In this document: piece after piece, positions 17,788 through 20,886 of the stretch
Position numbering within the stretch: the first letter of the stretch is position 1
Layout: each line of letters begins with the position of its first letter
DNA from: Candidatus Omnitrophota bacterium
GTDB taxonomy: Bacteria > Hinthialibacterota > Hinthialibacteria > Hinthialibacterales > JAKPRU01
DNA: 46,576 nucleotides
NCBI GenBank assembly: GCA_029570205.1
Contig: JAKQSI010000075.1
Span: 1 to 46,576 of the forward strand
Reading direction: 5' to 3'
Notes under the pieces: model-generated
Databases searched by the model: none
Seen by the model: only the letters and a program-made list of their open reading frames with translations
What the model was told of the DNA's origin: nothing
Made by a program: the position numbers and the translations under genes

Positions 17788-18210
17788 ATGCCCATCACAT
17801 CCCCACCGCCCGATCTTCCAAACAAGATTTTCTATTCCATTTCCGAGGTCAGCGAGTACACGGGGATCGAACCGCACGTGCTTCGGTACTGGGAGACAAA
17901 GTTCTCTCGGCTTAATCCGAAACGAGTGGGCGGCAACCAACGCAAATACACGCGGGCCGATCTCGATCTGCTGTATGAGATTATCCACCTTCTATACAAC
18001 GAGGGTTATACTCTGGATGGTGCGGAACGGAAACTTCGGGGCGGCCTTGCCCAAGTCCGCGCGGAGCGTGAGGCCGCCAATCACCCCGAACCGACGACAA
18101 AGGAAGAAACGGAACCGACCCCGGTTTCTGCGGGTTATGTGTCGCAGATCCATGAGATCCGCGAGGAACTGGCAGAGATTGTGCAGTCATTGGGGAGGAG
18201 GGTGAATTAA
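17788..18210 (+). CDS. MerR-family transcriptional regulator
   Basis: The N-terminal winged-helix domain starts IFYSISEVSEYTGIEPHVLRYWE and contains the wing NQRKYTRADLDLLYEI. The effector part is a short helical tail with a PEPTTKEETEPTP linker and a terminal amphipathic helix (SQIHEIREELAEIVQSLG). There are no metal-binding cysteines, so it is not a metal sensor. Short MerR proteins of this form, acting without a cofactor, are common near housekeeping genes. No target gene is obvious. AGGA lies about 8 bases before the ATG. Length is 140 residues. Confidence 0.85.
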   Translation: MPITSPPPDLPNKIFYSISEVSEYTGIEPHVLRYWETKFSRLNPKRVGGNQRKYTRADLDLLYEIIHLLYNEGYTLDGAERKLRGGLAQVRAEREAANHPEPTTKEETEPTPVSAGYVSQIHEIREELAEIVQSLGRRVN

Positions 18211-18641: not shown

Positions 18642-18670
18642 TTGACAAAACATATTTATATGTTAACAAT
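18642..18670 (+). promoter_or_regulatory. Promoter of the MarR gene
   Basis: TTGACA (18642-18647), exact 17-bp spacing and AACAAT (18665-18670). The strong -35 and the AT-rich core make this the best promoter in the window. The start would fall near 18677, about 70 bases before the gene. Confidence 0.7.
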
Positions 18671-18673
18671 ATA
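18649..18673. promoter_or_regulatory. MarR operator in its own promoter
   Basis: A perfect palindrome of 7-bp arms, AACATAT TT ATATGTT (18649-18664), fills the -35/-10 spacer. The 16-mer ATATGTTAACAATATA (18658-18673) covers the -10 box. The same 16-mer with TA changed to AT lies at 19280 before the next operon. Autorepression is inferred. Confidence 0.6.
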
Positions 18674-18747
18674 GATATGAACCATAAATCGACGCCGGAT
18701 TTTCCCAAGTTTTTGGTCCTGAGACCCGGCAGGTTTGGGAAGACAAA

Positions 18748-19221
18748 ATGAGTCTCCAGAAGGAATTAGGTTTCCAACGCCCTATTGAGAACCCTCTTCA
18801 TGCGGCCATGCTGAGCGTTGTACTCACCGGCTCCCTGCTGGTCAAAGAGGGTCACCGGATCATGCGCCCGTTCGGGATTACCGATGCCCAGTTCAATGTC
18901 CTGATGCTCCTGAAGTACCAGAGCGATGACGGCGAGCTGAACCAGACAGCCCTGGGCCGAATGCTTCTCGTAAATCGCTCGAATATCACGGGTTTGACTG
19001 ATCGCCTGGAACAGGCCGGGCTGGTCCGGCGTGTGATGGACACGACGGATCGGCGGGTAAACCGGGTCCGGTTGACGCCCAAAGGCCGTTCGGTTCTGGA
19101 TCGTGCGGAACAGGCTTATTTCGCACGGGTTCAGGAAATCATGGGAACACTCTCGGAGAAAGAGAATATGCAGCTGATTACGTTCCTGGAGCGCATCCGA
19201 AAGTCGCTGCGAACTCGGTAG
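18748..19221 (+). CDS. MarR-family transcriptional regulator
   Basis: A 157-residue winged-helix repressor. The DNA-recognition part reads GELNQTALGRMLLVNRSNITGLTDRLEQ (about 70-97), and the wing carries DTTDRRVNRVRLTPKGR. Helical dimerisation segments stand at both ends. MarR proteins usually repress their own gene and a neighbour and are released by small ligands. Both features fit here: an operator sits in its promoter and a close copy lies before the radical SAM gene immediately downstream. GGGAAG lies about 7 bases before ATG 18748. The ligand is unknown. Confidence 0.9.
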   Translation: MSLQKELGFQRPIENPLHAAMLSVVLTGSLLVKEGHRIMRPFGITDAQFNVLMLLKYQSDDGELNQTALGRMLLVNRSNITGLTDRLEQAGLVRRVMDTTDRRVNRVRLTPKGRSVLDRAEQAYFARVQEIMGTLSEKENMQLITFLERIRKSLRTR

Positions 19222-19237
19222 ATCGTTTCTCGGAAAC

Positions 19238-19266
19238 AAACCGGCAATGGGCCGGTTTTCTTTTTT
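19238..19266 (+). terminator. Rho-independent terminator after marR
   Basis: AAACCGGC, loop AATGG, GCCGGTTT, then TCTTTTTT. The perfect 8-bp stem with a T-run is a classical intrinsic terminator, so the radical SAM gene needs its own promoter. Confidence 0.85.
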
Positions 19267-19295
19267 GAATAGAATGTTGATATGTATACAATATA
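19265..19295 (+). promoter_or_regulatory. Promoter with MarR-type operator before radical SAM gene
   Basis: TTGAAT (19265-19270), 16 bp and TACAAT (19287-19292). The 16-mer ATATGTATACAATATA (19280-19295) covers the -10 box at the same offset (7 bp) as its near twin in the MarR promoter. The two differ only at two central bases. Confidence 0.6.
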
Positions 19296-19322
19296 TCTCT
19301 CAACAGAAGGGAGAAGAACATT

Positions 19323-20767: not shown

Positions 20768-20886
20768 GATGCTCTGCGGAGATTCCTCACATTCGTTCGG
20801 AATGACAGCCTGCACTCCTCGCCTATTGACAGGCACAGAGGCCTGTCCCACTGGAAAAACTGGTGGGACAGGCCTCTGTGCCTGTC
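20768..20886. repeat. Long inverted repeat with perfect 24-bp arms
   Basis: Arms 20828-20851 and 20863-20886 are exact reverse complements (start GACAGGCACAGAGGCCTG), with an 11-bp loop. The upstream part (20768-20815) has an ATTCCTCACATTCGTTCGG motif seen in common bacterial dispersed repeats. It lies between the radical SAM gene and the next gene and could act as a two-way terminator. The rest of 20745-21098 shows no gene. Confidence 0.7.

Follow-up and report, generated by a model that had tools for sequence, protein, structure and literature searches.

The window analysed here, a 46,576-nucleotide stretch of DNA from a Candidatus Omnitrophota bacterium, contains a gene for a MarR-family regulator and, downstream on the same strand, one for a B12-binding radical SAM enzyme. 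The question raised by this locus is whether a single repressor acts on both promoters and, if so, what its regulon is for. A sequence-only reading had proposed such an arrangement from two similar 16-mers, ATATGTTAACAATATA (18658-18673) and ATATGTATACAATATA (19280-19295). Both lie at these places and start 7 bases ahead of the respective -10 hexamers (AACAAT for marR and TACAAT for the radical SAM gene), and the strong marR terminator and the perfect palindrome with 7-bp arms that it had described in the marR spacer were likewise recovered (Table 1). The spacer palindrome was seen only in the window's genus, being present too in the near-identical genome G002. The unit conserved among relatives begins approximately 4 bases upstream of the 16-mers as first noted, and its centre of symmetry falls between 18660 and 18661 for marR and between 19282 and 19283 for the radical SAM gene. 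A MerR-family regulator gene (17788-18210; Pfam MerR_1, 8.5e-22) precedes marR on the same strand, and approximately 85 bases past the radical SAM gene there is a perfect 24-bp inverted repeat, GTGGGACAGGCCTCTGTGCCTGTC (arms 20828-20851 and 20863-20886), of which no further copy could be found within the window.

Table 1. Features of the marR/radical SAM locus, in window coordinates
Feature	Position	Strand	Basis
marR promoter, TTGACA-17-bp spacer-AACAAT	18642..18670	+	consensus scan, 10/12
Perfect palindrome AACATAT-TT-ATATGTT, 7-bp arms, in marR spacer, overlapping the operator	18649..18664		sequence
marR operator (predicted), ATTTATATGTTAACAATAT	18654..18672	+	pattern scan, motif discovery, cross-genus model
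MarR-family regulator, 157 aa	18748..19221	+	Pfam MarR, 3e-13; orthologs in 10/14 phylum genomes
marR intrinsic terminator	19238..19265	+	8-pair stem (19238-19258) and T tract; folding z = -3.0
Radical SAM gene promoter, TTGAAT-16-bp spacer-TACAAT	19265..19292	+	consensus scan, 9/12
Radical SAM gene operator (predicted), GTTGATATGTATACAATAT	19276..19294	+	pattern scan, motif discovery, cross-genus model
Radical SAM enzyme with N-terminal B12-binding domain, 473 aa	19323..20744	+	Pfam Radical_SAM, 1.2e-16; B12-binding, 1.6e-13

Within the window, the two 16-mers are the only matches at up to three mismatches, where 0.21 would be expected by chance. The scan of the genome for further copies that the earlier reading had suggested was carried out on the 4.39-Mb assembly, for which all genome-wide scans were pattern searches, and gave only two good copies: two exact ones and zero others at two mismatches or fewer. 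A further 22 matches all carried three mismatches, making a total of 24 against 27 for a reversed-pattern control; being as frequent as in the control, these were disregarded as candidate additional regulon members in this genome. With a 19-mer consensus drawn by eye from the promoters of relatives, the same two sites were again the sole copies at up to two mismatches.

For motif discovery, 18 marR and radical SAM gene upstream regions from nine genera (one genome each) were used without a seed motif. The motif found was GTTTATATATAAACAATA, with a score of 142.6 compared with 51-62 in dinucleotide-shuffled sets. Its first 14 bases are palindromic, as expected for a dimeric winged-helix regulator, and the MarR winged-helix domain is present in the window's protein (Pfam PF01047, 3e-13; PF12802, 1.4e-12). 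Written in full as GTTTATATRTAAAC(ARTAT), the element resembles an operator: it is palindromic and sits across the core promoter. A test model was then built from the 16 upstream regions of other genera and scanned on both strands of the window, where position 19275 ranked first (21.2 bits) and 18653 second (21.0 bits); the next independent site scored 8.8 bits, the entries between being other-strand or overlapping readings. When each genus was left out in turn, the scores of 15 of the 18 upstream regions were reached by 0 of 500 shuffles, the weaker cases being the marR upstream regions of G003 (p 0.036), G004 (p 0.074), and G006 (p 0.034). Second, weaker operator-like matches were also seen at 18668-18685 (marR) and 19288-19305 (radical SAM gene), with 12.3 and 12.7 bits, starting 13-15 bases downstream of the start of each main operator; these may be additional dimer sites, or may simply follow from the palindrome being AT-rich.

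The -10 hexamer lies inside each 16-mer, and promoters of a GC-rich genome are AT-rich, so the likeness might be merely that of two AT-rich -10 regions. This explanation is extremely improbable and was rejected: shuffled upstream regions do not reproduce the motif, a model drawn from other genera picks exactly the two window sites, and several relatives have the element past the -10 hexamer or over the -35 hexamer. The centre of symmetry is placed 4 bases before the start of the -10 hexamer in G000 and G009 (both genes), G012 (marR), and G008 (radical SAM gene), and 11-14 bases past it for marR of G008, the major facilitator superfamily (MFS) genes of G003 and G004, and a 366-aa protein gene of G003 and G005; in a Verrucomicrobia-labelled operon described below, it is on the -35 side. 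Some of the promoter predictions in relatives are weak, yet all of these centre positions occur among the strong ones alone (10-12 of 12). The element varies in position relative to the -10 hexamer and mostly overlaps the core promoter; the overlap fits repression, and the MarR protein would be a repressor rather than an activator.

Conservation was examined across 14 genomes of the window's phylum. A MarR ortholog was found in 10 of them, all 10 also encoding the radical SAM enzyme; six of these have the two genes side by side, and in the other four they sit on separate contigs. The element is present upstream of the radical SAM gene in all 10, including the four with the genes on different contigs, and upstream of marR as well, where it is weak in three (G003, G004, and G006). 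Conservation of the element in relatives that keep the gene pair, which the sequence-only reading had named as the finding its proposal depended on, was thus observed, and the idea that one MarR repressor acts on its own gene and on the radical SAM gene is well supported by this conservation across relatives. In G002, the radical SAM gene (92% identity; L032 1501-2904) contains an in-frame TAA, which marks it as a pseudogene or reflects an error in the assembly; the operator is intact.

From these comparisons, the element is almost certainly a real conserved operator, and MarR is likely to be the protein that binds it. Alternatively, it could be the site of another regulator or of an activator, with MarR a bystander in the same regulon; the weak marR-promoter scores in three genomes and the presence of the element in G001, which yields no MarR match, could be taken in this direction. 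Against this, a palindrome over the core promoter suits a dimeric repressor, the MarR-enzyme pair together with the site recurs in another phylum, and the site is gone where MarR is gone: G011 retains the enzyme (51% identity) together with an Aas-type gene but lacks a MarR ortholog, and the element is missing from the upstream regions of both genes, with the proviso that MarR absence is uncertain in an assembly 84% complete. We regard a bystander role as improbable and retain MarR as the likely binder.

The element is not restricted to these two genes in relatives. It precedes Aas-type genes (MFS, PlsC acyltransferase, and AMP ligase) in G007, G006, G005, and G001, the copies of G005 and G001 having been located by gene homology rather than by motif; several other regulon members were picked by the motif itself. 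No Aas-type gene was found in G003 and G004 at the threshold used, and a different MFS gene bears the element there, followed in G003 by a ligase-ACP-PlsC gene and in G004 by the contig end. Homologs of the ligase-ACP-PlsC gene in G007 and G008 had no clear element in the upstream stretch read. A DUF2339 gene bears the element in G008, and the DUF2339 locus of G012 has none. In G001, a genome of the same genus as the window's, where the element before the Aas-type gene lies at L127 1360-1420, neither MarR nor a closely matching radical SAM gene was found, and both may be missing from this assembly.

A 366-aa membrane protein (L049 1541-2641) without a Pfam match is encoded in 9 of the 14 genomes and neighbours the Aas-type gene in G005; by eye, it has coiled-coil-like and zinc-ribbon-like parts. 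Its gene has the element upstream in G003, G005, and G006, and not in G007, G004, G001, G009, or G012, and with three genomes only it is not a firm regulon member. Three further motif matches, which may or may not belong to the regulon, were obtained in G003:C20, before a putative lipoprotein gene, in G013:C281, and in G006:C79, where the contig ends and there is no Pfam match; two others are likely chance, one within fabH (G003:C66) and one on the start of a coding frame (G008:C43).

In the window's genome, only marR and the radical SAM gene were found under the element, and no Aas-type, DUF2339, or 366-aa gene could be detected. The system there seems reduced to regulator and enzyme, unless the other genes are absent from an assembly that is 93% complete. 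The compact one-repressor, one-enzyme system envisaged by the earlier reading holds for the window's genus and not for related genera with further operator-bearing genes. As the operator stands in front of phospholipid re-acylation and DUF2339 genes in those genera, a membrane-lipid regulon that has contracted is the better description of the system.

Relatives outside the phylum were found by scanning genome contigs for the enzyme. One Verrucomicrobia-labelled MAG (L143) has an operon of marR, the radical SAM gene, and a PlsC/AMP-ligase gene; its MarR is 36% identical over 119 aa, the marR gene overlaps the start of the enzyme gene, and the PlsC/AMP-ligase gene begins 48 bases after the enzyme gene. 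The promoter of this operon contains GTTTATATGTCAACTATA on the minus strand, and similar sites number 13 in the genome compared with 2 for a reversed control. In two Elusimicrobia-labelled MAGs (L141 and L144), a DUF2339 gene adjoins the enzyme gene. No MarR, Aas, or DUF2339 neighbours were seen for the close enzyme relatives L140, L216, L142, G111, and G138, making the linkage recurrent rather than universal. G064, a Verrucomicrobia-labelled genome, has an exact match to the queried motif (L226 1501-1518) in the region between an ApbE protein gene and a divergently oriented gene for a DUF2157-like membrane protein (below the Pfam cut-off).

The palindrome is conserved and lies at promoters, and its gene partners recur in other phyla. 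The grouping of MarR, Aas, and DUF2339 points to repair of phospholipid damage, and a lipid-damage role for the regulon, enzyme included, is moderately likely. In the mechanism we propose, a MarR dimer would bind the palindrome over the core promoter and repress both marR and the radical SAM gene, which is transcribed separately, and a ligand would free it from the operator to turn both genes on. The ancestral regulon would have served membrane-phospholipid repair, represented in relatives by Aas/LplT-type transport and re-acylation and by DUF2339 (Arc3A-family) proteins; the radical SAM enzyme would also take part in this response, probably acting on a lipid or other envelope component, and the inducer, at a guess, could be a product of lipid damage, for instance a lysophospholipid or a free fatty acid. 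Taken jointly, the reading we consider probable is that MarR represses its own gene and controls a regulon for membrane-phospholipid repair, with the B12-type radical SAM enzyme among its members.

The enzyme itself was compared with curated families and structures. Both the B12-binding domain and the radical SAM core with its CxxxCxxC motif are present, the latter (residues 174-181) being invariant in the alignment of the 10 orthologs, and the predicted fold (mean pLDDT 78.5) resembles the B12 radical SAM structures AprD4, MgmA, CysS, and OxsB. The domain layout is that of the BchE, HpnJ, HpnR, TIGR04072, and PhpK families, and the curated models matched include several lipid or tetrapyrrole enzymes; the enzyme falls far below all cut-offs, its family being unassigned, and was rejected as an equivalog of any of these five (best 105.7 bits, compared with 481 for BchE). 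These comparisons bear on a different possibility, in which the MarR operator is real, the regulator governs a response to general envelope or xenobiotic stress, and the enzyme, unconnected with lipids, produces or detoxifies an unrelated small molecule or peptide. The nearest curated models are diverse (BchE, PhpK, ApyD, MgmA, and HpnJ) and far below cut-off, none of the nearest folds AprD4, MgmA, and CysS is a lipid enzyme, and the nearest MarR models include regulators for phenolic compounds, e.g. HpaR. However, the operator and operon partners are lipid genes in three phyla, and we judge a non-lipid role unlikely, if well short of negligible.

Autoregulated MarR pairs are common. The gene set of MarR, radical SAM enzyme, and Aas or DUF2339 is uncommon, unlike ordinary pairs of this kind. 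The operator in one phylum and the operon arrangement in two others both link an uncharacterised B12/radical SAM family to two known lysophospholipid-clearing pathways; the enzyme thereby gains a concrete, testable cellular role, and a dedicated phospholipid-damage sensor in little-studied phyla is suggested. A more specific proposal, put forward tentatively, is that the B12-type radical SAM enzyme is an unrecognised part of defence against lysophospholipid or phospholipase damage alongside Aas and DUF2339 (Arc3A), induced through a MarR repressor dedicated to sensing lipids; the arrangement would span at least three phyla. No paper combining MarR with radical SAM and B12-binding or cobalamin was found in the open-access literature.

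Among known systems, a close parallel in gene content is the lysophospholipid defence of Pseudomonas aeruginosa, in which Arc3A (DUF2339) keeps lysophospholipids from accumulating when phospholipases attack and Aas re-acylates them, aas genes often neighbouring arc3 genes (PMC8926400). In the relatives, DUF2339 and Aas-type genes fall in one inferred regulon or lie beside the enzyme gene, whereas the Pseudomonas defence is under Gac/Rsm rather than a MarR repressor, with no radical SAM enzyme reported there (PMC8926400). A MarR regulator accompanying radical SAM genes is also a feature of the TIGR04472 radical SAM mobile pair regulators, to which the window's MarR was not assigned (34.1 bits against a cut-off of 240), nor could it be assigned to FabT (NCBIfam, 32.4 bits against 200). 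In regulatory logic, FabT of streptococcal and enterococcal fatty-acid synthesis offers a likeness, being a MarR-family regulator that acts on its own operon and on genes for membrane lipids (PMC13046290); the regulon proposed here differs in comprising re-acylation and DUF2339 genes in place of fab genes.
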